From: Knoellia sp. S7-12
GTDB taxonomy: Bacteria > Actinomycetota > Actinomycetes > Actinomycetales > Dermatophilaceae
DNA length: 64,000 bases
Direction: 5' to 3'
Assembly (NCBI RefSeq): GCF_040518285.1
Contig: NZ_CP155449.1
Coordinates: forward strand, 3,286,001-3,350,000
Every line of letters starts with the position of its first letter. Position 1 is the stretch's first letter. Shown one piece after another: positions 110 through 63,377 of the stretch. The notes below the pieces were generated by a model. The model searched no databases. It saw only the letters and a program-made list of their open reading frames with translations, and was not told the DNA's origin. The position numbers were made by a program, and so were the translations under genes.

Positions 110-120
110 GTATGCCGTCC
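110..120. repeat. GTATGCCG word, upstream of coaA
   Basis: One intergenic copy of the over-represented word, here extended as GTATGCCGTCCGCTC. The same 15 bases form each arm of the hairpin at 2880-2916. The first 143 bases of the window hold nothing else I can identify. Confidence 0.7.
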
Positions 121-143
121 GCTCACCCAGCATGTGCGCCACA

Positions 144-1136
144 ATGGCGCGCGTGTCTGCCACACCCGTAGTTCCCCCGTCCGGGTCCGAGCCGACGGCG
201 GCCGTGCCGTCGCCGTACCTCGACTTCACGCGTGACGACTGGGCCGAGCGGCGGGAGAACCACCCCCTGAGCCTCACCCCCGGTGACATCGCCCGGGTCA
301 CGGGGCTCGGCGACCGCGTCGACCTGCGCGAGGTGGAGCAGGTCTATCTCCCCCTTTCGCGCCTTCTCGCCTTCTATGTCAACGCCACCGCTGGCCTGCA
401 CCGGGTCACGACTGACTTCCTCGGCGACCGTCCGGCCAAGGTGCCGTTCGTCATCGGCATCGCCGGATCGGTGGCCGTCGGCAAGTCGACGACGGCGCGT
501 GTCCTGCGTGAGCTCCTCCGCCGCTGGCCCCAGACACCCCGGGTCGACCTCATCACGACCGATGGTTTCCTCCGGCCCAACGCAGACCTTGAGGCGCGAG
601 GACTGTTGCAGCGCAAGGGTTTTCCTGAGTCCTATGACCGTCGCGCGCTCCTCCGCTTCGTCGCCGACGTGAAATCGGGTATGCCGCGTGTCGTCGCCCC
701 CGTCTATTCGCACCTCACCTACGACATCGTCCCGGGGGCCGAGATCATCGTCGATCAGCCCGACGTGCTGATCGTCGAAGGGCTCAACGTGCTTCAGCCC
801 GCGACGGTGCGATCGGACCTCAGGACCCGTCAGGTGCTCTCGGACTACTTCGACTTCTCGGTCTACGTCGACGCCCCCGTGGATCAGCTGCGCACTTGGT
901 ACGTCGAGCGATTCCTCCGGCTGCGAGAGACCGCCTTCGCTGATCCGGAGTCGTACTTCCACCGCTACGCGGCGTTGACCGATGCCGAGGCACGCGAGAC
1001 TGCGGCAGGGATCTGGGAGCGGATCAACGAGCCGAACCTGCTGCGGAATGTGCTCCCCACGCGCGACCGGGCCACCTTGGTGCTGACCAAGGGCGCGGAC
1101 CACGCCGTGACGAACATCCGCCTGCGCCGTCTCTGA
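144..1136 (+). CDS. coaA: type I pantothenate kinase
   Basis: Phosphorylates pantothenate with ATP, the first committed step of coenzyme A synthesis, in the cytosol. The P-loop [12 protein letters not shown] lies at about residues 105-116, and the downstream LITTDGFL and [10 protein letters not shown] segments are typical of bacterial CoaA (P-loop kinase fold). From the ATG at 144 the protein is 330 residues, close to the usual 310-330. The frame is open further upstream, but that stretch resembles no CoaA and carries the GTATGCCG word. No strong ribosome site is visible, so the exact start is uncertain. The gene stands alone, convergent with the aldolase gene. Confidence 0.93.
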
Positions 1137-1166
1137 GCCGTCTTCGGGCCGAACCCGGGCACAGGT

Positions 1167-1883
1167 TCAGAGCCGGGCGAGGAGAGTTTCGGTCCCGGCC
1201 GCGACGACCGCGATGTCGGTCGTGACCGCGAGGCAGTCGAAGCCCCGGTCACGGAGCACGTGAGCCCGCTCAGGGGTTCCTGCAAAGGCCGCGACCCCGA
1301 TGCCCGCTCCTTCGGCGGCGCGTCGAACCGCCGACAAGGGTCCGTCGGAGTCCGCGAGCAGGTCGTCCACCGAGGTCCCCAGCGAGAGCGCCAGGTCGAA
1401 GGGGCCGACGAACAGGAGGTCCACGCCGGGCACAGCGGCGACGGCGTCGACGTTCGACAGGGCGAGCGCGGACTCGACCATCACGGCCACCTGTGTTCCC
1501 GACTGCTCTGGACCGGGCGCCTCCTGACTCCACAGAGGTGCCAGCGGCCCCCAACTGCGGTGCCCTGCCGGCGGGTAGTGCGCAGCCGCCACCGCGAGGC
1601 GCGCATCGTCGACGGTGTCGACGAGAGGGACGACGATGGTCGACGCCCCGACGTCCAGGGCGAAGCCGATGTCACCGGCATCCACCCGCGCCACCCGCAC
1701 GGCGAAAGAGTGCCCGCCGGCGCTCAAGATCTGGCCGGCCTCGAGCAGTGCGCGGCGGTCGAACTCACCGTGCTGGGCGTCCAGGGCTACCCAGTCGGCG
1801 GCAGAGTGCGCGAGCAGACCGACGACGGCCGGGCTGCTCATCGAGCACCAGATCCCGCTCGAGCCGGCTGCGAGTGCGCCCAC
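1167..1883 (-). CDS. HpcH/HpaI-family aldolase
   Basis: A 238-residue protein of the HpcH/HpaI aldolase/citrate lyase family, which makes or cleaves 2-keto-3-deoxy acids with a divalent metal in a TIM barrel. Visible family features are LDAQHGEFD near residues 34-42 (in place of the usual D-x-EHG), a V-P-L segment after the third strand, and MVESALALSNVDAVAAVPGVDLLFVGPFDLA near the C-terminus, where the metal-binding Glu and Asp sit. It starts with GTG three bases after the stop of the transglycosylase gene, so the two are probably translationally coupled. The pairing is not obviously functional and the substrate cannot be told. Confidence 0.82.
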   Translation of the reverse strand: MGALAAGSSGIWCSMSSPAVVGLLAHSAADWVALDAQHGEFDRRALLEAGQILSAGGHSFAVRVARVDAGDIGFALDVGASTIVVPLVDTVDDARLAVAAAHYPPAGHRSWGPLAPLWSQEAPGPEQSGTQVAVMVESALALSNVDAVAAVPGVDLLFVGPFDLALSLGTSVDDLLADSDGPLSAVRRAAEGAGIGVAAFAGTPERAHVLRDRGFDCLAVTTDIAVVAAGTETLLARL

Positions 1884-2879: not shown

Positions 2880-2916
2880 GGTATGCCGTCCGCTCGAGGC
2901 GAGCGGACGGCATACC
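2880..2916. terminator. perfect 17-bp hairpin after phoH2
   Basis: The two 17-base arms, beginning GGTATGCCGTCC and ending GGACGGCATACC, are exact complements around the loop AGG. It lies 30 bases past the phoH2 stop, before the transglycosylase promoter region. It has no T-tract, as is usual for actinobacterial terminators. Both outer ends are the GTATGCCG word. Confidence 0.85.
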
Positions 2917-2945: not shown

Positions 2946-4388
2946 TCAGAGGTCGCCGTGCTCCTGCTCGAGCAGGTCGGTGACGAGGGCCGCGATGGGG
3001 CTGCGCTCGCTCCGCGTGAGGGTGACATGGGCGAAGAGCGGGTGACCCTTGAGCTTCTCGATGACCGCCGCAACACCGTCGTGACGGCCGACCCGCAGGT
3101 TGTCGCGCTGGGCCACGTCGTGAGTCATGACGACCTTGGAATTCTGACCGATACGCGAGAGGACCGTGAGGAGGACGTTGCGCTCGAGCGACTGGGCCTC
3201 GTCGACGATGACGTAGGCGTCATGCAAGGAGCGACCACGGATGTGCGTCAGTGGCAGTACCTCGAGCATGCCGCGGTCGAGCACCTCCTCGACGACCTCA
3301 CGCGACACGAGCGCCGACAGGGTGTCAAAGACCGCCTGGCCCCACGGGTTCATCTTTTCGGACTCCGAGCCGGGCAGGTAGCCCAGCTCCTGGCCACCCA
3401 CGGCATACAGCGGCCGGAAAACGACGACCTTGCGCTGCTGGCGGCGCTCCATCACGGCTTCGAGGCCGGCACAGAGTGCAAGCGCCGACTTGCCGGTACC
3501 CGCGCGCCCTCCGAGGCTCACGATGCCGATGTCGGGGTCGAGCAGGATGTCGAGGGCGATGCGCTGCTCGGCGCTGCGTCCGTGCAGACCAAAGGCGTCG
3601 CGGTCGCCCTTGACGAGCCGCACCTGCTTGTCGGCACCGACCCGTCCCAGGCCACTGCCACGGGGAGAGAGCAGCTTGAGACCGGTGTGGCACGGCATCT
3701 CTGCCGCACCGAGGTGCTCGAGCCGGCCGTACTCGTAGAGGTGGTCCATCTCCTCGACCGTGACGTCGACCTCGGCCATGCCGGTCCAGCCCGAGTCGAC
3801 CGCGAGCTCAGCGCGGTACTCCTGCGCCTCCATGCCGCAGGCCGAGGCCTTGACCCGCATCGGCAGGTCCTTGCTCACGATGGTGACGAGGCGTCCCTCG
3901 TTGGCGAGGTTCTTGGCCACCGACAGGATACGGGTGTCGTTGTCTCCCAACCGGAACCCGGCAGGAAGCGATGAAGAATCGGTGTGGTTGAGCTCGACCC
4001 GCAAGATGCCGCCGTCATCACCAACCGGCACGGGAGCATCGAGCCGACCGGCCTTGATCCGCAGGTCGTCCAGCAGGCGCAGCGCCGCACGCGCGAAGAA
4101 ACCCAGTTCCGGGTGGTGCCGCTTGCCCTCCAGCTCCGTGATCACCACGATCGGGAGGACGACCTCGTGTTCCTTGAACCGCAGGATCGCTCGCGGATCC
4201 GAGAGAAGGACCGAGGTGTCGAGGACGTAGGTCCGCATCGCCGACTCCGAGACGTCCAAGGGTTCAGAAGACGTCGCATCTGAATCTGTGGAGGTGGCCG
4301 CCCCCTTCGCGCTCTCGCGCTTGCGCTGCCGGGTGCTCCCGGCGGTGGTCGTCGGTGAGGTAGCGGTGGAACGCGAGGATGTGGCCAC
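2946..4388 (-). CDS. phoH2: PIN-PhoH protein (PhoH2 family)
   Basis: A 480-residue protein joining an N-terminal PIN ribonuclease domain ([14 protein letters not shown], acidic D57) to a C-terminal PhoH ATPase with Walker [11 protein letters not shown] and Walker [10 protein letters not shown]. Studied members are sequence-selective RNases and RNA helicases, and in mycobacteria they pair with a small upstream antitoxin gene, phoAT. The GTG at 4388 is chosen because AGGAG stands seven bases before it; a longer open frame exists but its translation is low-complexity. The first 45 or so residues are Ser/Thr-rich and probably disordered. A hairpin terminator follows at 2880-2916. Confidence 0.93.
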
Positions 4389-4725: not shown

Positions 4726-5487
4726 TCAGGCGCCGAACCGGCGCTGCCGATCGCCATAGGCCCGCAGTGCCCGCAGGAAATCGACCTTGCGGAAGTCGGG
4801 CCAGTAGGCCTCGCAGAAGTAGAACTCGGAGTGGGCGCTCTGCCACAGCAGGAAGCCCCCAAGTCGCTGCTCCCCCGACGTGCGGATGACAAGGTCCGGG
4901 TCGGGCTGACCCTTGGTGTAGAGGTGTTCGGCGATGTGCTCGACGTCGAGCACCTCAGCCAGCTCCTCGATCGTCGTGCCGCGACCTGCGTGCTCAAGGA
5001 GCAACGACCGGACGGCGTCGGCGATCTCGCGCCGGCCGCCGTAGCCGACAGCGATGTTGACGAGGAGGCCGTCGACGTCGGCGGTGCGCGCCGCCGCTGC
5101 CTCGAGGCGTTGGCGCGTCGCGGTCGGCAGGAGCGTCAGGGCGCCGACGATGTGGAGTCGCCACTGGCCCGAGTCGGCGAGCGTGTCGACGGCCCGCTCG
5201 ATGATGCCGAGGAGTGGACGGAGCTCGGACTCGGCACGACTGAGGTTGTCGGTCGAGAGCAGCCAGAGGGTGACGACCTCGACCCCCACCTCCTCGCACC
5301 AGGCGAGGAAGTTGGCGATGTTGTCGGCACCGGCCTGGTGACCCTCGCTCGTGCCGGCACCCCGGGCCTTGGCCCACCGGCGGTTTCCGTCGAGCATGAC
5401 GCCGACATGGCGAGGAACACTCTCGGGAGGCAGGCGCTTGGTCAGCCGACGCTCGTATGCCGCATAGAGAACATCACTGAACGCCAT
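4726..5487 (-). CDS. uppS: short-chain cis-isoprenyl diphosphate synthase
   Basis: Condenses isopentenyl diphosphate units with cis geometry to make prenyl carriers for the envelope. The family signature HVGVMLDGNRRWAK is present with catalytic D33, as are LWLLSTDNLSR and DLVIRTSGEQRLGGFLLWQSAHSEFYF. At 253 residues, and lying beside hemolysin III as Rv1086 does beside Rv1085c, it resembles the M. tuberculosis Z-farnesyl diphosphate synthase rather than the decaprenyl enzyme; product length is inference. The start at 5487 is favoured because TACGGT sits six bases before it, giving a leaderless transcript. The gene is divergent from hemolysin III. Confidence 0.92.
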   Translation of the reverse strand: MAFSDVLYAAYERRLTKRLPPESVPRHVGVMLDGNRRWAKARGAGTSEGHQAGADNIANFLAWCEEVGVEVVTLWLLSTDNLSRAESELRPLLGIIERAVDTLADSGQWRLHIVGALTLLPTATRQRLEAAAARTADVDGLLVNIAVGYGGRREIADAVRSLLLEHAGRGTTIEELAEVLDVEHIAEHLYTKGQPDPDLVIRTSGEQRLGGFLLWQSAHSEFYFCEAYWPDFRKVDFLRALRAYGDRQRRFGA

Positions 5488-6509: not shown

Positions 6510-7447
6510 GCGGTTCGTTCCTTGCGTCCGTCGTGCACGATGGTGAGGTCCTGAGACGTCGCCATGGCATCGGCCTCGGCAAGGTCCGTCGGCAATCCAG
6601 CGAAGAGGTCGTCCTCGCCGTCGACGATGGGCACGTAGGACAAGCCCGCCTCATAGTCCTCCCACGGCCAGACCCGCGCCTGCTCCTCGCGCGAGACCTT
6701 GAAGAAGTTGCCGTCGGGATCGATCTGCGTCGCGTGCGCGAGCAGCGCCTGGTCGCGACGCTCGAACCACTCGTCGCACTTCACCCGGGTGGTGACCACG
6801 CGGTCACGCTCCGGGGGCCAGTTCTCGAGCCACGCGGCATACGGGCTCTCCTCCCCGAGAGCCGTGAGGGCTTCGTGGAAGGCGACCACCCGTCCGCGGC
6901 TGAAGGTCTGGTTGTAGTAGATCTTCAGCGGCTGCCAGGGCTCACCTGCGGTGGGGTATGCCGTGGGGTCACCTGCCGCTTCGAAGGCCGCCATCGACAC
7001 GGTGTGGCACATGATGTGGTCCGGGTGGGGGTAGCCGCCGTTCTCGTCATAGGTCGTCATGACGTGCGGGCGGAAGCGCCGGATCTCGCGCACGAGGGCC
7101 TCGGTCGTGACATCGGTCGGCTCGAGCGCGAAGCATCCGTCCGGCAGCGGTGGGAGCGGATCGCCCTCGGGCAGACCAGAGTCGACGAAACCGAGCCAGG
7201 TGTGGTCAACGCCGAGGATCTCCTGGGCGCGGCGCATCTCGTCGCGGCGCACCTGGACGAGGTCGCGCAGGATGTGCGCGTCGTCGGCAAGCTTGGGGTT
7301 GAGCACGTCTCCGCGCTCACCGCCGGTGCACGAGACGACGAGGACGTCGTGGCCTTCGTCGACGTACTTGGCCATCACCGCTGCGCCCTTGCTCGACTCG
7401 TCGTCGGGGTGTGCGTGAACACACATGAGTCGGAGGCGTTCTGCCAC
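6506..7447 (-). CDS. mca: mycothiol S-conjugate amidase
   Basis: Cleaves mycothiol-xenobiotic conjugates to a mercapturic acid and GlcN-inositol, a cytosolic detoxification step restricted to actinobacteria. It has the zinc-binding HAHPDDE at residues 11-17 and HPDHIMCH at 141-148, in a 313-residue LmbE/PIG-L fold. The paralogue MshB is the main alternative, but length, the YNQTFSR region and the neighbours (DUF4307, greA, small membrane protein) match Mca. The GTG at 7447 is preceded by AAAGGA. The next gene overlaps by four bases. Confidence 0.92.
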   Translation of the reverse strand: MAERLRLMCVHAHPDDESSKGAAVMAKYVDEGHDVLVVSCTGGERGDVLNPKLADDAHILRDLVQVRRDEMRRAQEILGVDHTWLGFVDSGLPEGDPLPPLPDGCFALEPTDVTTEALVREIRRFRPHVMTTYDENGGYPHPDHIMCHTVSMAAFEAAGDPTAYPTAGEPWQPLKIYYNQTFSRGRVVAFHEALTALGEESPYAAWLENWPPERDRVVTTRVKCDEWFERRDQALLAHATQIDPDGNFFKVSREEQARVWPWEDYEAGLSYVPIVDGEDDLFAGLPTDLAEADAMATSQDLTIVHDGRKERTA

Positions 7448-8828: not shown

Positions 8829-10085
8829 TCAGGCTTGGGCTTCTCTGTCGTGGATAACGACGTAGCCCTTGGCGCGCATGGCTGCGAGGACGCGCTCGCG
8901 GTGCTCGGGGCCACGCGTTTCGAGCCGCAGGGCGATCTCGACCTCGTCGACGTTGATCTGCGGACCCGTGCGAATGTGCTCGATCTCGAGGATGTTGGCG
9001 TCGACACCGGCGCAGTCGGCGAGGATGGCGGCCAGGGAGCCGGGTGTGTCGGGGACACGCACCGAGAACTGCAGGTAGCGGCCGGCTGCAACCAGTCCGT
9101 GCCGGATGATCCGCAGCATGAGGAGCGGGTCGATGTTGCCCCCCGACAGGACCGCCACGACCGGTCCTTCGATCTTCTCGGACTCGGAAGTCTCGGTCTC
9201 GGAGATCTCCAGGAGCCAGCCGACGGCTGAGGCACCCGCCGGTTCGACGACAAGTTTGGCCCGCTCGAGGAGGAAGAGCAGGGCGCGCGACATGCCGCCC
9301 TCGCTCACAGTCTCGACGCTGTCGACGAGGTCGCGCACGAGTGGGAAGGTCACGTCACCAGGCAGGCCGACGGCGATCCCGTCGGCCATGGTCGACATTT
9401 TCGCAGCGGCCAGCGGGTGCCCCGCGGCCAGGGATGCCGGGTATGCCGCGGCTTGCTCGGCCTGCACGCCGATGATGCGCACATCAGGCTTGAGTTCTCG
9501 GACGGCGACGGCGATACCGGCGAGCAGTCCGCCGCCGCCGAGTCCGACAACGATCGTCTTGACGTCGGGGCACTGCTCAAGGATCTCGAGGCCACAGGTG
9601 CCCTGTCCGGCCACGATGTCGTCGTGGTCGAACGGGTGGATGAGGATCGCACCGGTCTGCTGCGCCCAGGCCCGGGCGTGGACGAGGCTCTCGTCGAGGG
9701 TCTCGCCAATCTGCTCGATCGTGGCGCCGTAGGCCTTGGTGGCCGACACCTTGGGCATCGGCGCGCGCACAGGCATGTAGACCTTGACCGCGATGCCGAG
9801 CATCTGTCCGGCGAGGGCGACACCCTGCGCGTGGTTGCCCGCGCTGGCGGCGACGACACCCCGCGCCTTCTCGTCAGCGGTGAGGTGGAACATGCGGTTG
9901 TAGGCGCCACGGATCTTGAAGGACCCGGCGCGCTGGAGGTTCTCGCACTTGAGAAAGACGTCGGCGCCGACTCGCGCCGACAGACCGCGGTTGAACTCCA
10001 TGGGTGTGGGAGCAATGACGGTGGAGAGCAGGTCAGCGGCGGCGCGGATCTGCGCGACCGTCACCGACGACGATGTGGGTGTCAT
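8829..10085 (-). CDS. ilvA: threonine ammonia-lyase with ACT domain
   Basis: A PLP enzyme converting threonine to 2-oxobutanoate and ammonia. The 418-residue protein has the PLP Lys in AGSFKIRGAYNR (K57), the phosphate-binding loop VVGLGGGGLLAG, and one C-terminal ACT domain beginning LQFSVRVPDTPGSLAAIL. A single ACT domain is common in catabolic and short biosynthetic forms. The start at 10085 has no ribosome site, but TACTCT sits six bases upstream, which indicates a leaderless transcript; an in-frame upstream extension is Cys-rich noise from the twin hairpins. Confidence 0.92.
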   Translation of the reverse strand: MTPTSSSVTVAQIRAAADLLSTVIAPTPMEFNRGLSARVGADVFLKCENLQRAGSFKIRGAYNRMFHLTADEKARGVVAASAGNHAQGVALAGQMLGIAVKVYMPVRAPMPKVSATKAYGATIEQIGETLDESLVHARAWAQQTGAILIHPFDHDDIVAGQGTCGLEILEQCPDVKTIVVGLGGGGLLAGIAVAVRELKPDVRIIGVQAEQAAAYPASLAAGHPLAAAKMSTMADGIAVGLPGDVTFPLVRDLVDSVETVSEGGMSRALLFLLERAKLVVEPAGASAVGWLLEISETETSESEKIEGPVVAVLSGGNIDPLLMLRIIRHGLVAAGRYLQFSVRVPDTPGSLAAILADCAGVDANILEIEHIRTGPQINVDEVEIALRLETRGPEHRERVLAAMRAKGYVVIHDREAQA

Positions 10086-12570: not shown

Positions 12571-13881
12571 TCAGACCACGGTTCGAGCGAGCGCGCGCGC
12601 CGCCTGCGGGTACGCGTGCCCGAGCAGGCCACAGGCAAAGAGCACGTATGCCGTGTCGACGCCGTGCGTCGCAGCCGCAGGGACCGTCCACCCGCCGGCA
12701 TGGTCGCTCACGAGCGCGCCAAGGACACCGTCAGCCACTCCGTCCGGGCCGTGCCGCAGCACACCGCCGGACCCGAGGACGAGTCCGACGTCGGCGAGCG
12801 GGCGCGGCCTGTCTCCGACGACCCGCGGACGACCGTGCCGTCGCGCAGCAACCACCGCGGCCACCCGGGCCAGGTCGGACTCGTGCACCCACTCCCCCGG
12901 CGTCGACGCGCGGTGACCAGTCGCGGAGGCGACGTGAGCGGCATACGCATCGGTTCCGGACGACAGCGCAAGGTGCTCGCGAGCAGCGGCCTCGACGATG
13001 CCGAGAGCGTTCCACCGCATGCCCAGGTCGGCCTCGACGGTGCGTTCGTGCCACATCGAGCCGGCGACGTCGCGCTCGATCTCGGCGTCCTCTCCCTGGG
13101 GTCGGAGCACCGAGTAGACGTCGGTCGTCGCGCCACCGATGTCGATGACCATGACGTCCTCACCGCGCACGTCGGCCAGCAGCTCGACCCCTTGAAGGAC
13201 GGCATCGGGGGTTGCCGCACGGACCAGCTCGGTGAATCCCCGCCCTCGGGACAGGCCTTTGCCGCCGATGACGTGCTCGAGGAAGGCTGCCCGGATGGCT
13301 CCACGCGCGGCATCCGGGGCGATGACCCCGATGCGCGGAAGGACGTTGCTCGTGACGCTGTGACGACGCCCGGTTCGCTCGAGCTCGGCCGACACCTCGA
13401 GGGAGACCTCGGCGTTGCCGGCGACGACGATGGGCATGGTGACGCGGGCATTGGCCAGTCGAGTTGCATTGTGTCGCAACACATCTGCGTTGCCACCGTC
13501 AGTCCCGCCGACCAGAAGCACGAGGTCGGGTGCGGCCGCTCGCAACTCGCGCACCCCCTCCCCCGACAGCAGGCCCCCCGACACGTGGACGACCCGACCG
13601 CCCGCTGACAGGGCCACCCGGTGCCCCGCCTCCGCCGTCACCTCGCGTTCGTAGCCCACGACGGCGATACGCAGCCCGCCGCCTGCGGACGAGCAGACGA
13701 GCGTCTCGGTTACGGGACCATGGGAGGCGAGCGCACGGCATACGCCATCCACTCCGTCCATGACGTCGGTGTCAACGGTCGTCGGGTGAGACGCTGCTGC
13801 GACCAACACGCCGGACGACACGTCGACGAGGACGGCCTTCGTGAAGGTCGACCCGACATCGACGCAGAGGACGAGTGACAC
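12571..13881 (-). CDS. MutL-like ATPase (glutamate mutase accessory family)
   Basis: A 436-residue actin/Hsp70-fold protein of the MutL/GlmL family: phosphate-1 motif LCVDVGSTFTKAVLVD, phosphate-2 motif VMVIDIGGATTDVYSV, and LVLLVGGTDGGN. In glutamate-mutase operons this protein accompanies the B12-dependent mutase subunits; none are in this window, so it is an orphan and may be a reactivating chaperone for another enzyme. The GTG at 13881 lies one base after the metB stop, so translation is coupled to metB. Confidence 0.78.
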   Translation of the reverse strand: MSLVLCVDVGSTFTKAVLVDVSSGVLVAAASHPTTVDTDVMDGVDGVCRALASHGPVTETLVCSSAGGGLRIAVVGYEREVTAEAGHRVALSAGGRVVHVSGGLLSGEGVRELRAAAPDLVLLVGGTDGGNADVLRHNATRLANARVTMPIVVAGNAEVSLEVSAELERTGRRHSVTSNVLPRIGVIAPDAARGAIRAAFLEHVIGGKGLSRGRGFTELVRAATPDAVLQGVELLADVRGEDVMVIDIGGATTDVYSVLRPQGEDAEIERDVAGSMWHERTVEADLGMRWNALGIVEAAAREHLALSSGTDAYAAHVASATGHRASTPGEWVHESDLARVAAVVAARRHGRPRVVGDRPRPLADVGLVLGSGGVLRHGPDGVADGVLGALVSDHAGGWTVPAAATHGVDTAYVLFACGLLGHAYPQAARALARTVV

Positions 13882-15076: not shown

Positions 15077-15082
15077 AGGGTA
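15077..15082 (-). promoter_or_regulatory. -10 box (TACCCT), leaderless metB promoter
   Basis: TACCCT, then GTCGTC, then ATG. The TAC is shared with a CGGCATAC word. Confidence 0.6.
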
Positions 15083-15127
15083 TGCCGCGTGGTCCCGACC
15101 GCTTCGGGCGAGCCGGTTCGGCTCGCG

Positions 15128-16123
15128 TCAGCCGAGCCGTTTCTGCCACTCGCGCAGGATGGCCGTGGTCCGGTAGCCGAGCGCCTCGTTGACCGCGATC
15201 ATCGGCCCGTTCTCCTGGGCGTTCCAGGTGCGGACGATCCTGGTCTGGGGGGACTCGGCGCGCAACGTGCGCATGTTGGCGGCCTTGACTGCTGCGCCGA
15301 GCCCGTGGCCGCGGTGCTCGCGGAGAACGAGAGTGTCCTGCTGATAGGCGAGAACCGGCTCCGCCGTGGGGATCTGCAGCTGGGTGAAGGCGACGAGCCG
15401 GCCGGTGTCGAGGTGGCGGGCCACGGACTCGACGGCGCGGCGGCCGCTCTTCGCCGTCGCCTCGCGCTCACCCTTGAGCCGCTCGACGTCCCAGTCCTCC
15501 TCCTCGAAGTCGAGGTCGCCGAGCGGGACGTCGGTGCTCATGCGCCGCTGCAGATGGGCGCGATCCTCGAGCCACTCGTCCTTCGTGTCATCAGTGGACG
15601 TCTCGATGACGTATCCCGGTGTGTCGCTTGCCTGCTCGTGTCGATACCCGGTGACATCGAGGTCGTTGCGGTGGTTCGTCTGGGCCATGTCGAAGCCGTG
15701 GATGCGCGCGAATGCCTCCCCCGGATCCGTGCCGTCCTTCGGGTATGCCGTCTCCGTCACGAGAGACGTCCGGCCGGCCCCTCGCGCCACCTCGGTGACG
15801 TGGTCGAACATCGTGGTCCCGATGCCGAGGCGACGGTGATCAGGATGGACCGCGAGGTCGAGCAGGGCCAGCTCGGGGTTGTCCCGCAGCGGCATCGCGA
15901 GGTTCGCGCTGGACAGGACCCGACCTGCGTCGTCCACGGCCGCGAGGTAGCGCCGGTCCCACGCCGAGGACGCCTCGCGGGCCCGTAGTGAAGCCATCGA
16001 CCAGGCGTCGTGATCGTCACCCATCGTGGCCACGGTCGAGGCGACGAAGACGTCGTTCCACTCGACCGCCAGATCGGCTTGGGCGGGGTCGAGCGTGGTG
16101 ACGCGAACGATGCGGACGGACAT
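15128..16123 (-). CDS. tandem GNAT acetyltransferase
   Basis: 331 residues holding two GNAT folds. The first carries LLDLAVHPDHRRLGIGTTMFDHV, where the R-x-x-G-x-G/A loop binds acetyl-CoA. The second carries DTLVLREHRGHGLGAAVKAANMRTL. Two-domain GNATs include MshD, the last enzyme of mycothiol synthesis, but I see nothing that fixes the substrate. The start at 16123 follows GAGG; a longer open frame upstream is not protein-like. Confidence 0.82.
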   Translation of the reverse strand: MSVRIVRVTTLDPAQADLAVEWNDVFVASTVATMGDDHDAWSMASLRAREASSAWDRRYLAAVDDAGRVLSSANLAMPLRDNPELALLDLAVHPDHRRLGIGTTMFDHVTEVARGAGRTSLVTETAYPKDGTDPGEAFARIHGFDMAQTNHRNDLDVTGYRHEQASDTPGYVIETSTDDTKDEWLEDRAHLQRRMSTDVPLGDLDFEEEDWDVERLKGEREATAKSGRRAVESVARHLDTGRLVAFTQLQIPTAEPVLAYQQDTLVLREHRGHGLGAAVKAANMRTLRAESPQTRIVRTWNAQENGPMIAVNEALGYRTTAILREWQKRLG

Positions 16124-18648: not shown

Positions 18649-20802
<2,154 letters not shown>

Positions 20803-29985: not shown

Positions 29986-31465
<1,480 letters not shown>

Positions 31466-45947: not shown

Positions 45948-47195
45948 TCAGGTGGCCAGTGCGTGACTGCGCCGAAGCACCAGGCTGAGGACAGCCACTC
46001 CGGCAAACAACGCACCGGCGAGGACGACGACACCGGACCACCCGGCATACGCCCAGGCATGTCCCCCGGCCGTCCCGAAGACGGACGAGCCGACGTAGTA
46101 GGCGAACAGATAGAGCGAGGCGGCCTGTGCGCCGGCCACGCCGCCGGCGTGCGCCCGCACTGGCACCCAGCCACTGGCCACGCCATGGAACACGAAGAAG
46201 CCCGCGGTCATGAGTGCGGTGCCGGCAACGACGACCGCGAGGTGGCCAGGGATCGTCAGCAGGAGGCCCGCGAGCGCGAGCCCCGCGCCGATCGGGACGA
46301 CCGCCCGACGACCAAAGCGATCGGCGAGCCGGCCGGCGATCGCGGACCCGGCGGACCCGAACGCGTAGACGAGGAAGACGAGGCTCGCAGCGCCCAGGCC
46401 GAGGCCGAACGGTGCACTCGTGAGCCGGAATCCGAGTGCATTGAAGACGGCGACGAAAGCCCCAGCGCCGAGCATTCCGATCCCGTAGAGCGCCAGGAGC
46501 ACCGGATCAGCGACGGCACGGCGGGCCATCCCGAGCATGGAGCGCACGCCCGCTCGACGTGGGACGAAGTGGCGCGACCCGGGCAGCGCGAACCACACGA
46601 TGAGCGCGCAGATGAGCCCCAGGACGGCCGCGGCCGCGAGCGCCCAGCGCCACCCCCACGCCTCGGCGACGGCTCCTGTTGCGAGTCGCCCCGTCATGCC
46701 ACCGACGGCGGTCCCCCCGATGTAGAGACCTGCGGCGCGCGCGTGGGCGCCGCGGTGCAGCTCTTCACGCAGGTATGCCGTGGCGACCGCGGGCAGGCCA
46801 GCGATCGTCACGCCGAGCGCGAGTCTCAGTCCGAGGAAGGTGGGCCAGGTGGGTGCGACGGCACTGGCCGCGGCGACGACCACTGAGGCGATGAGGCTGG
46901 CGTGGATGAGTCGGGTGCGGCCGATGCGGTCGGACAGCGGCCCGGCGATGAGGAGGGTGAGGCCGAGCGCGATGGTGGTGAGCGAGAGGGAGAGCGTGCT
47001 GTCGGCCGACGAGACGCCGAAGTCGTGGGCGAGCTCGGGCAGCAGTGCCTGGGTGCTGTAGATGAGGGCGAAGGTCGCGACACCCGCTGCGAAGAGAGCA
47101 AGAACGACTCGGCGATAGCCCGGCGTGCCGGGACGGTGACCCGTGTTCGTCGGCACAGGGGTGTCTGGTCGAGCGACCCGCTGGCGTGTCTTCAC
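45948..47195 (-). CDS. MFS transporter
   Basis: 415 residues with twelve predicted helices and the MFS motif A GPLSDRIGRTRLI, repeated as AGRLADRFGRRAVV. It is like YnfM/arabinose-type exporters that sit divergent to LysR genes. The GTG at 47195 is the best start; the ribosome site is poor. It is the first gene of the accessory block beyond glmU. Confidence 0.86.
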   Translation of the reverse strand: MKTRQRVARPDTPVPTNTGHRPGTPGYRRVVLALFAAGVATFALIYSTQALLPELAHDFGVSSADSTLSLSLTTIALGLTLLIAGPLSDRIGRTRLIHASLIASVVVAAASAVAPTWPTFLGLRLALGVTIAGLPAVATAYLREELHRGAHARAAGLYIGGTAVGGMTGRLATGAVAEAWGWRWALAAAAVLGLICALIVWFALPGSRHFVPRRAGVRSMLGMARRAVADPVLLALYGIGMLGAGAFVAVFNALGFRLTSAPFGLGLGAASLVFLVYAFGSAGSAIAGRLADRFGRRAVVPIGAGLALAGLLLTIPGHLAVVVAGTALMTAGFFVFHGVASGWVPVRAHAGGVAGAQAASLYLFAYYVGSSVFGTAGGHAWAYAGWSGVVVLAGALFAGVAVLSLVLRRSHALAT

Positions 47196-52320: not shown

Positions 52321-52425
52321 ACGATGCGCGTCAGGCGTGCTCACGGCATACGTCGCACAGAGTAGTTGACCCGAGCGCGACCTCACGCATGGTGCTGTCA
52401 GCGGTGACGTGCGCAGGAGGGCACA

Positions 52426-53079
52426 ATGGCGCAGGTGAGTCGAGACGATGCCGTGACGAAGGTGCGCACTCCGCGGGGGCGGATGACGGGAGCACAACGG
52501 CGCGAGCAGCTCGTCGGGATCGGACGCCAGATCTTCGCGAAGCGGGGATACGAGGCGACCACCGTCGAGGAGATCGCGAGCGCAGCCGGTGTCTCCAAGC
52601 CCGTGGTCTATGAACACTTTGGGGGCAAAGAGGGCCTGTATGCCGTCGTCGTCGACCGTGAGATCCAGGCACTTCTCGCGTCGATCGCCGGTGCGCTGAC
52701 CTCTGGTGGCAGCTCGCGAGCACTGCTCGAACGGGCCGCGACCGCACTGCTCGACTACATCGAGTCGTCGACCGACGGCTTCCGGATCCTCGTGCGCGAC
52801 TCGCCACCCGGACAGCAGACCGGCAACTTCGCGTCCCTCATGTCGGACGTCGCCTCGCAGGTCGAGCACCTGCTCGCAGCGCAGTTCACCAAACGCGGGC
52901 TCGACCCCAAGCAGGCGCCGATGTATGCGCAGATGCTCGTCGGCATGGTGGCGCTCACGGGTCAGTGGTGGCTCGAGAACCCCAAGGCCAAGAAGCGCGA
53001 CGTCGCCGCAGCCCTGGTCAACCTTGCATGGAACGGTCTGACGGGCCTTGAGCCCAAGCCCGAGATCACCCACGCCTGA
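52426..53079 (+). CDS. TetR-family transcriptional regulator
   Basis: 217 residues with HTH in LVGIGRQIFAKRGYEATTVEEIASAAGVSKPVVYEHFGGKEGLYAVV and a helical ligand domain. AGGAGG precedes the ATG. A TetR gene near glmU and tRNA is conserved in actinobacteria (Rv1019-like); targets are unknown. It contains a GTATGCCG word read as Tyr-Ala. Confidence 0.92.
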   Translation: MAQVSRDDAVTKVRTPRGRMTGAQRREQLVGIGRQIFAKRGYEATTVEEIASAAGVSKPVVYEHFGGKEGLYAVVVDREIQALLASIAGALTSGGSSRALLERAATALLDYIESSTDGFRILVRDSPPGQQTGNFASLMSDVASQVEHLLAAQFTKRGLDPKQAPMYAQMLVGMVALTGQWWLENPKAKKRDVAAALVNLAWNGLTGLEPKPEITHA

Positions 53080-53493: not shown

Positions 53494-54359
53494 CAGGCAC
53501 CTGCTTCGGTCGGAGCATCGGTAGGAGCTTCGGTCGGGAGTGTGTCGGCGGCGTCCTTCTTGCGGGCCACGGCGAAGACACGCCTGAACGGGAAGAGGAC
53601 ACCGACCTCGCTGCGCGGATAGGCCTCGCGGAGCGACGCGGCATACGGCTCGACGAAGGCGTCACGCTCCTCCCCCTCGGGAAGGATGTCGAGGACCGGA
53701 CGCAGGCCGGTGGCGCTCACCCAGTCGAGGACGGGATCCTGCGACGCACCGTCGGGGTCGAGCACATGCGAGTAGACCGTCTCCCAGGCATCGACGTCGG
53801 CGCCCAGCCGAGTGAGGAAGGTGAGATAGGTCTTGGGCTCCCCGACGGCCGGCAGGTCGAGCGCGGCGAGCAGCTCGTTGGCGCGGGCGTGGGTGGCCGA
53901 AGTCTCGCGCATGAGTGCGTGACTTGGTGCGTCGAAGTTGTTGGGGACCTGGATCGCGAGCCAGCCACCGGGTGCCAGTGCGTCCATCCACGTCGGCAGG
54001 AGGTTGAGGTGACCGGGCACCCACTGCAGGGTCGAGTTCGTGATGATGATGTCGGGAACCTGACCGAGGGAGGCGGGATCCCAGTCCTTGAGGTCGGCCT
54101 GGATCCACTCGACCCGATCGGCCGTGTCCAAGGCTCGAGCGGCCTCGAGCATCGTCTCGGACGCATCGATACCGACGATGCGAGCGTTCGGCCAGAGCTC
54201 ACCCAGCGTGAGGGTGGCCGGACCGTTGCCACAGCCCAGATCCACGACCAACTCCGGTTCGTCGCAGCGCACTTGGGCAACGAGGTCGGCGAACGGGCGA
54301 CTTCGCTGCTCGCCGAACCGTGAGTATGCCGCGGGGTCCCAGCTCGGCTGTGTGCGCAT
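53493..54359 (-). CDS. tam: trans-aconitate 2-methyltransferase-like protein
   Basis: 288-residue class I SAM methyltransferase: motif I LVVDLGCGNGPATLTLGE, acidic loop VGIDASETML, WIQADLKDW, and TNSTLQWVPGHLNLLPTWMDALAPGGWLAIQVPNNFD, the pattern of Tam, which methylates trans-aconitate to protect aconitase. The last 20 residues are a Thr/Pro/Ala tail. AGGAGGAG precedes the ATG. It is divergent from the MarR gene, whose operator lies in the shared gap. Confidence 0.88.
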   Translation of the reverse strand: MRTQPSWDPAAYSRFGEQRSRPFADLVAQVRCDEPELVVDLGCGNGPATLTLGELWPNARIVGIDASETMLEAARALDTADRVEWIQADLKDWDPASLGQVPDIIITNSTLQWVPGHLNLLPTWMDALAPGGWLAIQVPNNFDAPSHALMRETSATHARANELLAALDLPAVGEPKTYLTFLTRLGADVDAWETVYSHVLDPDGASQDPVLDWVSATGLRPVLDILPEGEERDAFVEPYAASLREAYPRSEVGVLFPFRRVFAVARKKDAADTLPTEAPTDAPTEAGA

Positions 54360-56194: not shown

Positions 56195-58036
56195 TCAGGG
56201 CTCGAGGGCGTCTGCAGCTTCGAGCCATTCGAGCTCGAGGACCTCACGCTCGTCGACGACCTCACGCAGCTCCTGGTTGAGCTCAAGCACCTTGGCGTGA
56301 TCACTCACGTGCTCGGCCATCGCCGCGTGGATCCGCGCTTCACGGGTCGCCAGTTTGGAGAGCTGCTTCTCGACCCGAGACATGACCTTGCGGGCCTCCC
56401 GCTGCTCAGCCGGACTTGCCGAGGAAACCGGTTGCGCCACAGGGGTTTTCGGCTCGACCGCCGACGAAGCGGGGCTGTCGACGGAAGGGGCCATCGCGGC
56501 ATACGTCGGGGTGACGGTGGCGCGCAGCTTGAGGTACTCCTCGACACCGCCCGGCAGCTGCCGCACGTGACCATCGCCCAAGAGGGCCACCTGCTGGTCC
56601 GCGACCCGCTCCAGGAGGTAGCGGTCGTGCGAGACGACGAGCAGCGTTCCGGCCCAGCCGTCGAGGACATCCTCAAGGGCGGTGAGCGTCTCGATGTCGA
56701 GGTCGTTGGTCGGCTCGTCGAGGAGCAGGACGTTGGGCTCGTCCATGAGGATGCGCAGCACCTGCAGCCGGCGCCGCTCACCACCGGAGAGGTCACGGAC
56801 GCGCACCTGCTGGCGAGGACCCGGGAAGCCCAGGCGCTTGGCCAGCGATGATGCCGAGACCTCCTTGCCGCCGAGCATGGTGACCTTGCGAACCTCTTCG
56901 ACGGCATCGATGACCCGGCTGTCGCGGAGGCGGTCGAGCTCGCGCACGTCCTGCGTCAGGTGGCCGATGCGGACGGTGATGCCTTCCTTGCGCTTGCCCG
57001 CAGTCAGCGGGATCTCGCCGGCGATGGCGCGCAGCAGGGTCGACTTGCCGGAGCCGTTGACCCCGACGATGCCGATGCGCGCACCCGGCGCGAGGTGCCA
57101 GGTGAGCTTTTCGAGGAGGGTCCGATCACCCAGGGACACGGACGCGTCGAGGAGGTCGATGACATCCTTGCCGAGCCGGCTCGTCGCGAACGCCATGAGC
57201 TCGACGTCGTTGCGCGGGGCGGGCTCGTCCTCGATGAGGGCGTTGGCGGCGTCGATCCGGAACTTGGGCTTCGTCGTGCGGGCGGGCGGGCCGCGACGCA
57301 GCCAGGCGAGCTCCTTGCGGAGCAGGTTGTTGCGGCGCTCGGCGGTGACCTTGGCCATCCGCTCGCGCTCGGCCTTGGCCAGCACGTAAGCCGCGTAGCC
57401 GCCGTCGAAGCCGTTCACCTGACCGTCGACGACCTCCCAGGTGCGGGTGGCGACGGCGTCGAGGAACCACCGGTCGTGAGTGATGGCGACGAGGGCGTTG
57501 TCGGGGCGGGACCGATAGTTCACGAGGTGATCGGCCAACCAGGCGACGCCCTCGACGTCGAGGTGGTTGGTCGGCTCGTCGAGGAGCAGGACGTCGGGGT
57601 CGTCGACCAGCAGCGAGGCCAGCGCGAGGCGGCGGCGCTCGCCACCGGACTTGCCGGCCACGGTCGACTCCAGACCCCCGAGCGCGGGGGCGTCCAGTCC
57701 TCCGAGCAGGCCCGTGAGGACGTCGCGGATACGCGAGTCACCGGCCCAGACGTATTCCTCGAGGTCACCCAGGACGACCTCACGCACGGTCGCCGCGGGG
57801 TCGAGCGTGTCGTCCTGGGTCAGCACACCGACGGTGCCGCCGCCGAGGCGGGCCACCCGTCCACTGTCCACGGCGAGCTCCCCCGCGAGGACCCGAAGCA
57901 GAGTCGTCTTGCCGCCACCGTTGCGTCCGACGATGCCGATCAGGTCGCCGCCGGAGACCCCGAGGGAGACGCCGTCGAGCACCTGAGCGGTGCCGAGCGC
58001 GAGGGCAGCGCGCTCGACCGAGATGATGACCGCCAC
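56195..58036 (-). CDS. ABC-F family ATPase
   Basis: 613 residues with two ABC domains: Walker A GRNGGGKTTL and GVNGSGKSTL, signatures SGGERRRLALA and SGGERRRLQVL, Walker B LLLDEPTNHLD and LLLDEPTNDLD, the P-site linker between, and a C-terminal coiled coil of the Uup type. It has no membrane helices. ABC-F proteins act on ribosomes. The GTG overlaps the ispE stop by one base (TAGTG). Confidence 0.93.
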   Translation of the reverse strand: MAVIISVERAALALGTAQVLDGVSLGVSGGDLIGIVGRNGGGKTTLLRVLAGELAVDSGRVARLGGGTVGVLTQDDTLDPAATVREVVLGDLEEYVWAGDSRIRDVLTGLLGGLDAPALGGLESTVAGKSGGERRRLALASLLVDDPDVLLLDEPTNHLDVEGVAWLADHLVNYRSRPDNALVAITHDRWFLDAVATRTWEVVDGQVNGFDGGYAAYVLAKAERERMAKVTAERRNNLLRKELAWLRRGPPARTTKPKFRIDAANALIEDEPAPRNDVELMAFATSRLGKDVIDLLDASVSLGDRTLLEKLTWHLAPGARIGIVGVNGSGKSTLLRAIAGEIPLTAGKRKEGITVRIGHLTQDVRELDRLRDSRVIDAVEEVRKVTMLGGKEVSASSLAKRLGFPGPRQQVRVRDLSGGERRRLQVLRILMDEPNVLLLDEPTNDLDIETLTALEDVLDGWAGTLLVVSHDRYLLERVADQQVALLGDGHVRQLPGGVEEYLKLRATVTPTYAAMAPSVDSPASSAVEPKTPVAQPVSSASPAEQREARKVMSRVEKQLSKLATREARIHAAMAEHVSDHAKVLELNQELREVVDEREVLELEWLEAADALEP

Positions 58037-58968
58037 TAGTCGACCTTGGCCGGGATGACGTGGGCGCCGTGGACGGGACCGATCGCCTTGCGCACCTCGC
58101 GCGCGGCGCCGGTGGCGGTGAGGGCAACTGTGAGGTCGATGGCCGACTCGACGTCCTCGACGAGGAAAGCGACCGTCGGCCCGGACCCCGAGACGACGCC
58201 ACCGAGGGCACCGAACTCCATGCCGCTCGCGAGAAGCTCACCGAGCTCGGGCCGCAGCGAGATCGCGGCATCCTGCAGGTCGTTGGTGAGCTGCGGCGCG
58301 AGGATGTGCGGGTCGCCGGAGCGCAGCGCGACCATCAGCTCAGAATTTGGCGTGGGGTCGGGCACGGAGGCCTCGCCACGCAGGCGGTCACACTCGGCAT
58401 AGACCTCGGGCGTCGAGAGGCCGATGTCGCTCATCGCGAAAACCCAGTGATAGCTGCCGCGCGCGAGCACCGGGGCGAGACGCTCGCCCCGGCCACTGCC
58501 CACGGCGGTGCCCCCACGGATGAGGAACGGGACATCGGAACCCAGCTCGGCGGCATACTCCTCCAGCTCTTCGGTCGACAGACCGAGTGCCCACAGGCGG
58601 TCGCACGCCACGAGAGTGGCGGCAGCATCGGCCGAACCACCGGCCATTCCCCCGGCGACGGGGATCGACTTCGCGATCGACACGTGCACAGGGGTGTCGA
58701 CGCCGGTCTCGTCGGCGAGGAGGCGGGCGGCGCGCAGCGCGAGGTTGGTCGAGTCGGTCGGCACGACGTCGGCGTAGGGGCCGCTCATCGAGCAGTTCCA
58801 GTCGTCGTCGAGGGCGACCGTGACGTCGTCGTGGAGGTTCACGGCTTGGTAGACGGTGGACAGCGTGTGGAAGCCGTCGTCGCGCACAGGACCAACGAGA
58901 AGTTCGAGGTTGACCTTGGCGGGGACACGCACCGTGACGGGCGAGGGGTCCGAGTGGGCCGAGGTCAT
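58036..58968 (-). CDS. ispE: 4-diphosphocytidyl-2-C-methyl-D-erythritol kinase
   Basis: GHMP kinase of the MEP isoprenoid route. 310 residues: VRVPAKVNLELLVGPVRDDGFH, the ATP loop SIAKSIPVAGGMAGGSADAAATLV, and LGGVVSGSGPTVAFL. Leaderless: TAGGGT stands six bases before the ATG. An ABC-F gene follows in the same operon. Confidence 0.95.
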   Translation of the reverse strand: MTSAHSDPSPVTVRVPAKVNLELLVGPVRDDGFHTLSTVYQAVNLHDDVTVALDDDWNCSMSGPYADVVPTDSTNLALRAARLLADETGVDTPVHVSIAKSIPVAGGMAGGSADAAATLVACDRLWALGLSTEELEEYAAELGSDVPFLIRGGTAVGSGRGERLAPVLARGSYHWVFAMSDIGLSTPEVYAECDRLRGEASVPDPTPNSELMVALRSGDPHILAPQLTNDLQDAAISLRPELGELLASGMEFGALGGVVSGSGPTVAFLVEDVESAIDLTVALTATGAAREVRKAIGPVHGAHVIPAKVD

Positions 58969-59063: not shown

Positions 59064-60071
59064 ATGAGACTTCTCGTGCTCGGTGGAACGGCGATGCTCG
59101 GACGTGCCGTCGCGGCTCAGGCTGTCGCCGACGGTCATGACGTGACCTGTCTGGCGCGCGGCGTCGCCGGCGACGTGCCCGACGGTGTGCGGTGGGTTCG
59201 TGGTGACCGCGATGAGCCCGACGGACTCGCCGAGGTGTCAGCCGCCGACTCGAGATGGGACGCCGTCCTCGACGTCTCGCGCCAGCCCGGACAGGTGCGC
59301 AGCGCTGTCGTTGCCCTCGAACCAGTCGCCTCGCACTTCGTCTTCGTCTCCACAGGCAATGTGTATGCCGACCACTCACGTCTCGCGTCCGACGAGTCCG
59401 TTCCGCTGTTGCCGGCCCTGGACGGCGAGGTCATGGCCGACATGACGGTCTATGGCGAGGCCAAGGTGGCGTGCGAGGCGGCCGTCCTCGACGGGTTCGG
59501 CGCCGACCGCTCACTGATCGCCCGGGCCGGGCTCATCGGCGGGCCCGGCGATGCCTCGGGTCGCTCGGGCTGGTGGCCCTGGCGCTTCGCCCACCCGGTG
59601 GGTTCTGGTGGGGCCGTGCTGACGCCTGACGACCCGGGCCTTCCCATGGCGATCATCGACGTGCGCGACCTCGCTGCCTGGCTCGTGCGCTGCGCCGACG
59701 CGCGGACCTCAGGAGTGTTCGACGCCGTCGGCGAACCCGACACCCTGGGCGGCCTGCTCTCGGCCGCGCGCGAGGTCGCCGGTCACGAGGGCGCCGTTGT
59801 CCCGGCCTCGGCCGCATGGTTGGCCGAGCACGGTGTCCAGGAGTGGATGGGCGACGAGAGCCTGCCGCTGTGGATCTCGGACCCGGACTGGCGCGGCTTC
59901 GGCTCGCACACCGGGGCCGCGGCCCGCGCAGCCGGACTCACCAACCGGCCGGTGACGGACACGCTTCGGGACGCGGCGGCATACGAGGAAGGTCGTCAGG
60001 CGACCGACCCACGACGCTGCGGCCTCAGCGACGAGACCGAGCGAAAGCTACTCGGACTCCTCGGCCACTGA
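59064..60071 (+). CDS. NAD-dependent epimerase/dehydratase-like protein
   Basis: 335-residue extended [28 protein letters not shown] (nucleotide-binding), [12 protein letters not shown], and YGEAKVACE (active-site Tyr-x-x-x-Lys). Substrate unknown; the atypical G-G-T-A-M-L-G loop and C-terminal region suggest a reductase rather than a sugar epimerase. It holds two GTATGCCG words. Its end overlaps rsmA by 24 bases, convergently. Confidence 0.85.
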
Positions 60072-62204: not shown

Positions 62205-62410
62205 GAGTGCTCCGATGATCGAACTCTCCGGATACCAAGACGGGCGACAGTCCCAGGGGAGGACCGCGGGACTCCCCAGGGGAAGAGTCCCGACAACAGG
62301 AGAGCGAGGGTCGCCAGGCGTCACCGCCGGCGTCCTCGCCCCTGCCTTCGCCCGGAGCCCAGCTCCGGCCAACCCATCAACCATGACCAGAAACAAGGCA
62401 AAGGTCAAAT

Positions 62411-62420
62411 TTTGGTAACG
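62411..62420 (-). promoter_or_regulatory. possible MtrA-type box of rpfB
   Basis: TTTGGTAACG on the plus strand, identical to the box upstream of the transglycosylase gene at 1887-2675 but in the opposite sense to its gene. Confidence 0.4.
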
Positions 62421-62480
62421 GTGAGATGGCCCAAGGGTGTCACGGCTGGGACATGTGTGACAGGTGTGCAGCGCGACGCG

Positions 62481-63377
62481 TCACCAGGGGCCGTAGACGC
62501 GTTCCGAGTTCTCGGACAGCGCTTCACAGAGCGTGGGCACCGCCACCCCCAACGTGGCCGCCATCGCGCGCACGGTGAGCGGCACGAGGTGAGGGGCGTT
62601 GACGGAGCCTCGCCACGGGTGCGGCGTGAGGTAGGGCGCATCGGTCTCGACGAGCAGGCGATCCAGCGGCGTCACGGAGAGTGCGTCCCGCAACCCATGG
62701 GCGTTCTTGAAGGTCACGGTGCCCGCAAAGGACAGGTAGTAGCCACGCTCCACGCATTCCTGAGCCATCGACAGATCACCCGAAAAGCAGTGCAGCACAG
62801 TCGATTCCGGCGCTCCCTCCTCCTCGAGAATGCGCAGCACGTCGGCGTGCGCGTCTCGGTCGTGGATCTGCAACGCCTTGCCAAGGCGCTTGGCCAGGTC
62901 GATGTGCCATCGGAAGCTGGCGTGCTGCGCGCCGTGACCCTCGGGGCCGGTCCGGTAGTAGTCGAGCCCGGTCTCCCCGATGACCCGCACCCTGGGGTGC
63001 CCGGCCAGTTCCTCGATCTCGGCGTATGCCGCGTCGAGACTGCCGCTGTCAGCGAGGCCGGGCACCTCGTTGGGATGCAGAGCGACGCCACCGAGCATTG
63101 CCGGATGCGTGTCGATCATCTCGATGGTGGCGCGGGCCCCCGGGAGGTCGCAACCGATCTGGACGACCCGGTCGACACCGACTGCCCTGGCCCTGGCAAG
63201 GGCGTCAGCGATGTCGACAGGGTGCCCCTCACGCTCGATGTCGAGGTGCGTGTGGTTGTCGACAACCGCGATGGGAAGTGGGTCGGGCAGGCCGGGGACC
63301 CCTCTTGTCTGGCTCGTCGAACTCGTCGAACTCGTCGAACTCGACGGGGTTGTCGAGTTCGACGCGAGCCCAGTCAC
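62481..63377 (-). CDS. tatD: TatD-family metal-dependent DNase
   Basis: 298 residues of the amidohydrolase fold: VVDNHTHLDIE (first metal ligands), VRVIGETGLDYYRTGPE, LQIHDRDAHADVLRIL, LHCFSGDLSMA and LVETDAPYLTPHPWRG. Acts as a 3'-5' exonuclease and DNA-repair or quality-control enzyme. The GTG overlaps the metG stop (GTGA). Residues 10-24 are a Ser/Thr repeat encoded by a nine-base minisatellite absent from usual TatD. Confidence 0.93.
   Translation of the reverse strand: MTGLASNSTTPSSSTSSTSSTSQTRGVPGLPDPLPIAVVDNHTHLDIEREGHPVDIADALARARAVGVDRVVQIGCDLPGARATIEMIDTHPAMLGGVALHPNEVPGLADSGSLDAAYAEIEELAGHPRVRVIGETGLDYYRTGPEGHGAQHASFRWHIDLAKRLGKALQIHDRDAHADVLRILEEEGAPESTVLHCFSGDLSMAQECVERGYYLSFAGTVTFKNAHGLRDALSVTPLDRLLVETDAPYLTPHPWRGSVNAPHLVPLTVRAMAATLGVAVPTLCEALSENSERVYGPW
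63313..63339. repeat. nine-base minisatellite in tatD
   Basis: CTCGTCGAA is repeated three times exactly, with further partial copies on both sides. It encodes the Ser-Ser-Thr run at the TatD N-terminus. Confidence 0.9.

Follow-up and report, generated by a model that had tools for sequence, protein, structure and literature searches.

To our knowledge, uptake sequences are known only from the Neisseriaceae and the Pasteurellaceae. Here we describe an eight-base word, GTATGCCG (the A word), that recurs throughout the chromosome of the actinobacterium Knoellia sp. S7-12, a member of a family that we take to be the Dermatophilaceae in the GTDB sense. On balance we consider this word probably to be an uptake sequence that has dialects and is recognised by a machine of Tad/Flp, ComEA and ComEC components. 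It was noticed in a 64-kb stretch of the chromosome, the whole of which we call the window. In what follows, G, g and L numbers denote the genomes, genera and loci of our comparison set, in which Knoellia sp. S7-12 is G000.

Several described systems invite comparison. The DNA uptake sequence (DUS) of the Neisseriaceae is an over-represented word with dialects that follow phylogenetic groups, with inverted pairs that have been suggested to be terminators and with word-less islands (PMC7371117). GTATGCCG is likewise over-represented, with variant words, inverted pairs and a word-poor stretch. It differs in that its host is monoderm and high in GC, with Tad-type genes in place of PilM-type pilus genes (the latter found in just 3 of 80 genomes), in that it lacks the CTG core common to all eight DUS dialects (PMC7371117), and in that the Neisseriaceae have the receptor ComP, whereas for GTATGCCG there is a putative reader only. 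One dialect, AT-DUS (ATGCCGTCTGAA), shares ATGCCGTC with a common extension of GTATGCCG, which we take as coincidence. In the Pasteurellaceae, 65% of the uptake signal sequences (USS) of Haemophilus influenzae are intragenic, without orientation bias; their spacing falls short of the evenness that compaction sites should show, and only ~10% lie in inverted pairs (PMC1939737). GTATGCCG resembles the USS in being over-represented, largely intragenic and unoriented, and differs in being another word in another lineage. Transformation of Micrococcus luteus needs comEC and two tad clusters (PMC4322843); comEA, comEC and Tad-type clusters with similar gene order occur in the Dermatophilaceae, although the term "uptake sequence" appears 0 times in PMC4322843. 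Finally, highly iterated palindrome 1 (HIP1) of the cyanobacteria is also a genome-wide iterated octamer, but it is the palindrome GCGATCGC (PMC4390886).

The first-pass annotation of the window had put the copies of TATGCCG/CGGCATA at about 50-55, most of them as one 8-mer. Counting gives 57 copies of the 7-mer (27 on the plus and 30 on the minus strand) and 52 of GTATGCCG (27 and 25), against order-3 Markov expectations of 5.0 and 2.4 (z = 23 and 32), and under this model the two words head the 7-mer and 8-mer rankings of the window. All 21 coordinates that it had named have a real copy within 11 bases, and its density of about one copy per 1.2 kb is that of the window; genome-wide, the density is one per 1.5 kb. 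The chromosome of 4,163,720 bases holds 2,805 copies, 1,406 on the plus and 1,399 on the minus strand, compared with 79 (33 and 46) for the reversed word used as a control. In a 464-kb sample of G000, made up of the window and 20 stretches of 20 kb across the chromosome (21 stretches in all), there are 340 copies versus 14.9 expected (z = 84). GTATGCCG is the top 8-mer with at least 10 copies in this sample, and 9 of the 11 next words overlap it. Of its 24 single-base variants none comes near its enrichment: the highest, CTATGCCG, stands at 2.5 times expectation and the lowest at 0.11, and those altered at the last three positions stay below 0.6 times. Under the highest-order Markov models (orders 5 and 6), GTATGCCG is outside the eight best words of the window because these models absorb the excess through its subwords; enrichment was therefore judged by the order-3 model, the reversed-word control and codon shuffling. 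The strong over-representation claimed at first is thus confirmed as real, and counts near the Markov expectation were found neither in the window nor in the larger sample. Another word, GTAGGCCT, is raised as well (25 versus 4.9 in the 400 kb of the G000 sample beyond the window).

An excess of this kind could in principle be an artefact of codon or dipeptide usage, and the reading frames lend this some color: of the 233 copies in the 464-kb sample that fall within genes (called with a small codon-usage script), 103 read as Tyr-Ala and 84 as Ala-Tyr. However, when synonymous codons are shuffled with proteins and codon use kept, coding DNA retains 17.4 copies in place of 228, a 13-fold difference. 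Moreover, the word is denser between genes than within them, at 1.40/kb versus 0.60/kb in G000 (2.3 x) and at 1.05/kb versus 0.50/kb in seven other GTATGCCG genomes (280 kb). The artefact is contradicted by these counts, and we give it virtually no weight. In the window, 35 of the 52 copies lie in genes and 17 between them, so that the intragenic placement first reported is borne out.

The strands bear on a second explanation, in which GTATGCCG acts as a recombination hotspot in the manner of Chi, recognised by RecBCD, AdnAB or AddAB. Like Chi, the word is short, over-represented and largely coding, and Chi varies between species (PMC8022716). Chi is, however, polarised to the leading strand (PMC8022716), whereas the two orientations of GTATGCCG are balanced over the 21 stretches (165:175; chi-square 5.9 on 21 degrees of freedom), with no stretch clearly biased; polarity was scored by stretch, with oriC and ter not located. 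Nor is a match to RecC found in G000, and among 39 GTATGCCG genomes RecC is absent from 26 and present in 13 (AdnAB and AddAB were not searched for). The intergenic bias and the inward hairpins described below have no rationale under Chi. Because the strands are balanced and G000 lacks a RecC match, a Chi-like role is quite improbable. The polarity toward the terminus that characterizes the FtsK-orienting polar sequences (KOPS) is likewise missing from these balanced strands (the terminus was not located), and the initial judgment that a polar Chi- or KOPS-like role was unlikely, made because both orientations seemed equally common, agrees with both the chromosome-wide and the sampled counts. 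As a side observation on RecC, G008 has it and is without the word, and its sisters in the searched subset, G005, G007 and G009 (genus g4, Arsenicicoccus), have the word and are without RecC.

Copies in G000, where spacing was measured, are spread more evenly than chance. The variance-to-mean ratio of counts is 0.62, 0.51 and 0.59 in 4-, 10- and 20-kb bins, and among 61 other 8-mers of similar abundance only 0, 1 and 3, respectively, have lower values. Even spacing and whole-genome spread are what would be expected if an intracellular protein, such as a nucleoid protein, a methylase or a repair factor, bound GTATGCCG and selection kept its distribution even, the word being one that organises the chromosome or resembles HIP1. 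According to PMC1939737, which disagrees, Karlin et al. took the regular spacing of known uptake words to indicate that they serve replication, repair or compaction. Three observations point the other way. First, GTATGCCG is not self-complementary, unlike the palindromic HIP1. Second, the occurrence in related genera of one-base variants and of a wholly different word fits a changing receptor better. Third, the inward hairpin pairs in G000 resemble those of uptake words. An intracellular organising role is the main rival to an uptake function, although we consider it rather unlikely.

Paired copies were said at the outset to resemble terminators. In the G000 sample, 16 of the 21 GTATGCCG pairs less than 60 bp apart face inward, and in 11 of these 16 the stem runs past the word, up to 18 bp. 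Twelve inward pairs could be placed in gene gaps, 9 of them tandem, 3 convergent and none divergent (divergent gaps total 12.8 kb), which is the placement expected of terminators, albeit with small numbers. Two such pairs lie in the window. The hairpin at 2881..2915, with arms at 2881..2888 on the plus strand (left) and 2908..2915 on the minus strand (right), has a perfect 16-bp stem with 3 outer pairs and a loop of 3; it is terminator-like, between minus-strand open reading frames at 1887-2873 and 2946-4580. That at 20749..20778 (left arm 20749..20756, plus; right arm 20771..20778, minus) has a 12-bp stem and a loop of 6, and is similarly terminator-like, between minus-strand frames at 18649-20709 and 20803-22260. 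The early description of inverted pairs as terminators therefore holds as a statement about layout.

Hairpins of ~30-50 bases among the intergenic copies could also suggest a mobile or repeated element, such as a repetitive extragenic palindrome, a miniature inverted-repeat transposable element or the remnant of an attachment site. The flanks speak to this. At 101 intergenic sites in G000, T is found at +8 in 51, C or T at +10 in 77, G at +11 in 64, C or G at +12 in 92 and C at +14 in 74, giving an extended intergenic form of roughly GTATGCCG-T-S-Y-G-S-Y-C. Beyond this extended word no conserved flank was seen, and most copies (233 of 340) are bare 8-mers in genes, with little flank conservation there. 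We regard copies of a repeat element as a very remote prospect.

The word is a property of much of the family. At least 390 copies occur in 107 of 186 family genomes, spread over 30 of 53 genera, and the other 79 genomes hold at most 361; outside the family (287 of 295 class genomes), the top density, reckoned by hand, is ~0.05/kb versus 0.67/kb in G000. The tallies of 107 genomes here, and of 7 and 19 below, were made by hand with cut-offs at gaps in the counts (394/361, 2,099/1,336 and 1,198/396). Absolute counts were used because the reversed-word control is inflated by tandem words in g4. The 186 family genomes include Phycicoccus elongatus Lp2 (G164), Humibacillus xanthopallidus (G039), Arsenicicoccus bolidensis (G005), Intrasporangium flavum (G098), Dermacoccus abyssi (G020) and an uncultured Phycicoccus (G163); the best comEC segment of G000 is 76% identical to that of K. 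remsis. Scans of 40-100 kb from each of G001, G008, G010, G020, G022, G038, G068, G082, G095, G183 and g46 yielded no sharp word. Among the 287 genomes outside the family, one outlier, G442 (family f27, genus g92), has GTATGCCG 94 times on the plus and 76 times on the minus strand, versus 9 and 18 for the control.

Where genomes share the word, they tend to share its sites. Near comEC, the exact word is kept in 21 of 28 aligned site comparisons between G000 and three relatives (pieces 72-89% identical). Over 43 comEC loci, 1,001 of the 2,556 comparisons that pair two GTATGCCG loci retain it (39%), the figure for all 8-mers being 12.6%, and none of the 530 that involve a genome without GTATGCCG does; because loci are re-used, these comparisons are not independent of one another. 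The conservation in relatives for which a check had been proposed is thus found.

Related words take its place in some genomes. Seven of the 186 genomes (G017, G018, G034, G035, G178, G036 and G037; next highest 1,336) hold 2,099 or more copies of GGATGCCG, which stands alongside GTATGCCG in G036 and G037 and in coding DNA exceeds its codon shuffle 6.4-fold. GAATGCCG is found 14 times beside 8 copies of GTATGCCG in the 22-kb locus L031, which was assigned to G047 from the position of comEC. By subtraction, G047 has 3,269 copies, far above every other genome, and GAATGCCG is probably a changed word in that one genome. For GTATGCGG, a 20-kb stretch of G025 (genus g13) holds 8 copies versus 0.4 expected, with GTATGCCG absent there. 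Subtraction (GWATGCSG minus GTATGCCG) yields 608-1,391 copies in g13, and the same procedure yields 400-1,031 in several other genomes (1,031 in G086, 922 in G046, 771 in G104); we tentatively treat GTATGCGG as a changed word in four genomes of g13, mainly on the strength of the G025 stretch.

A wholly different word, CCCCTTCG (core CCCTTCG), unrelated to GTATGCCG, has 1,198-3,180 strand-balanced copies in 19 of the 186 genomes. These carriers are all 16 genomes of g27 (G052-G067) and all 3 of g35 (G090-G092; loci of the carriers are L107-L109, L118 and L119), and the other 167 genomes hold at most 396. In g27 coding DNA, CCCCTTCG exceeds its codon shuffle 4.8-fold. A Janibacter indicus locus has 6 copies of CCCCTTCG in 12.4 kb and no GTATGCCG; therefore, g27 is probably Janibacter. 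Searching plasmids with a Janibacter-like stretch as query gave no match.

The machinery that might read such words was sought in 80 genomes chosen for high and low word counts. comEC is present in 79 of them, the miss being a 760-contig assembly, and among the matches listed ATPases of the T2SSE family are present in all 80 (79 over the cut-off). PilM, tried as a marker of type IV pili, was set aside as nearly absent, only 2 of its 3 matches being over the cut-off. comEA accompanies 28 of 30 comEC loci, with and without the word alike. In G000 itself, where a search for competence genes had been suggested, comEA, comEC and Tad-type ATPases were found: comEC adjoins a gene with SLBB and HHH_3 domains, which we take to be comEA from its domains, near leuS; at 677 kb there is a T2SSE ATPase. 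The Tad-type cluster, as read in relatives of G000, comprises an ATPase, two T2SSF genes, an flp candidate, TadE, a second pilin and Tad. This order is the same in 9 of 10 loci, drawn from GTATGCCG, GGATGCCG and GTACGCCG genomes and two without GTATGCCG; in the tenth (G119), gene order was beyond the gene caller. In the cluster of G124, Pfam matched the ATPase, both T2SSF proteins, TadE and Tad, while the 52-residue flp candidate and one pilin, which have no Pfam match, are named by position.

G000 also has a Tad cluster at 685-694 kb that is only 25-34% identical to the other loci and looks accessory. Around this cluster, the interval at ~681-704 kb (L147 and L159), which also encodes a TIR-domain protein, is poor in GTATGCCG, with 2 copies where ~15 would be expected, its limits being chosen after inspection. 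The 49 kb of Tetrasphaera phage TJE1 likewise hold 2 copies. Such scarcity agrees with a tag that is missing from foreign DNA, and would agree with any word maintained by the genome. Two comEC genes drew attention in passing. That of G113 seemed broken, a suspicion we rejected since the gene stops at a contig end. In G068, which is without the counted words, comEC is in two parts ~28 kb apart (C1 2175993-2204556; L153 and L154), as if interrupted by an insertion.

The layout, then, is that of an uptake sequence; preferential uptake, a reader protein, a mechanism of drive and the status of the variants as dialects are what we infer. How might these fit together? In this model, GTATGCCG would be a self-recognition tag for sequence-biased DNA uptake in the Dermatophilaceae. 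A DNA-binding component of a surface machine, presumably a minor pilin of a Tad/Flp filament or a partner of ComEA, would prefer tagged DNA; ComEA and ComEC would then import it, and recombination would place it in the chromosome. Tagged DNA, being taken up more often, would cause tags to accumulate where they do little harm, and pairs of tags would be tolerated or reused as terminator hairpins. Shifts in the specificity of the reader would give rise to dialects.

Several observations weigh against such a function. We know of no natural transformation in these genera, and a literature search returned none for them among the matches listed. comEC, comEA and the T2SSE ATPases are equally common in genomes without the word, and no searched gene tracks GTATGCCG; therefore, no receptor gene is identified. 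About 51 of the 186 genomes carry none of the counted words (55 if GTATGCGG, a variant that is itself only tentative, is left out). The flank preference differs in other GTATGCCG genomes, where C occupies position +8 at 30 of 49 sites between genes. Inward pairing is less marked or differs elsewhere: 3 of 4 close pairs in the seven other GTATGCCG genomes (166 copies), 7 of 12 in 19 comEC loci of GTATGCCG genomes (254 copies), 5 of 9 for GGATGCCG (197 copies) and only 1 of 9 for CCCCTTCG (112 copies). Finally, a two-base variant, GCATACCG, is also raised in G000 (38 versus 8.9 expected in the 400 kb sampled beyond the window). The early proposal that the word is laid out like an uptake sequence is thus partly supported: in G000 the enrichment, lack of polarity, even spacing, intragenic copies and inward pairs agree with it, as do the conservation and the one-base variants in relatives, but no competence gene searched for follows the word.

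An uptake function for GTATGCCG could be part of something broader. Sequence-specific uptake may extend across the family, with dialects GTATGCCG, GGATGCCG, GAATGCCG and perhaps GTATGCGG, a full switch to CCCCTTCG and a putative receptor on a Tad/Flp filament; this wider proposal we put forward with less assurance, as somewhat short of an even chance. Under it, G036, G037 and G047 would have been caught in mid-switch, and CCCCTTCG would be the word of the probable Janibacter and of one other genus, a picture that we hold just as provisionally. A literature search outside subscription papers and preprints gave no actinobacterial uptake sequence, and nothing relevant on the word itself, among the matches listed. 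If GTATGCCG is one, no earlier uptake language is known to us outside the Proteobacteria. Monoderm actinobacteria would then provide a third, independent case, evidence that biased uptake has arisen more than once and with another type of pilus, and natural transformation would be suggested for genera in which it has gone unrecognised. Changes of word between related species would then be natural comparisons for finding the receptor.

One further word, GTACGCCG, looked like a dialect: 40-kb samples of G089 and G002 held 34 and 33 copies, respectively, versus 7.5, and counts reached 4,185 in G088. We rejected it because its excess is diffuse over many words of CGTACG type. It stands at 228 of 842 GTATGCCG sites in GTACGCCG-rich genomes versus 40 of 530 in genomes without GTATGCCG, and this orthologous replacement may be mostly synonymous change combined with the CGTACG bias. 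An excess of CGTACG-type words over codon shuffling is seen in G002, G015, G083, G087 and G089 and in loci of Nocardioidaceae, Kribbella and Micromonosporaceae (L051, L055, L058, L067-L069, L072, L073, L075, L079, L083, L088, L095 and L102).

Apart from the two hairpins, the intergenic copies of GTATGCCG in the window are, on the plus strand, 110..117, 15080..15087, 18217..18224, 25428..25435, 34046..34053, 34727..34734, 40507..40514, 41553..41560, 45921..45928 and 54324..54331, and, on the minus strand, 22358..22365, 31377..31384 and 52344..52351. The remaining plus-strand copies are at 679..686, 5455..5462, 6956..6963, 9441..9448, 12646..12653, 15743..15750, 18741..18748, 28184..28191, 37410..37417, 38644..38651, 44420..44427, 46773..46780, 52638..52645, 59363..59370 and 63024..63031. 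Those on the minus strand are at 3401..3408, 6835..6842, 12939..12946, 13736..13743, 17903..17910, 19860..19867, 22167..22174, 24166..24173, 26471..26478, 28684..28691, 30030..30037, 35616..35623, 38338..38345, 40443..40450, 43240..43247, 46043..46050, 53639..53646, 56497..56504, 58551..58558 and 59977..59984.

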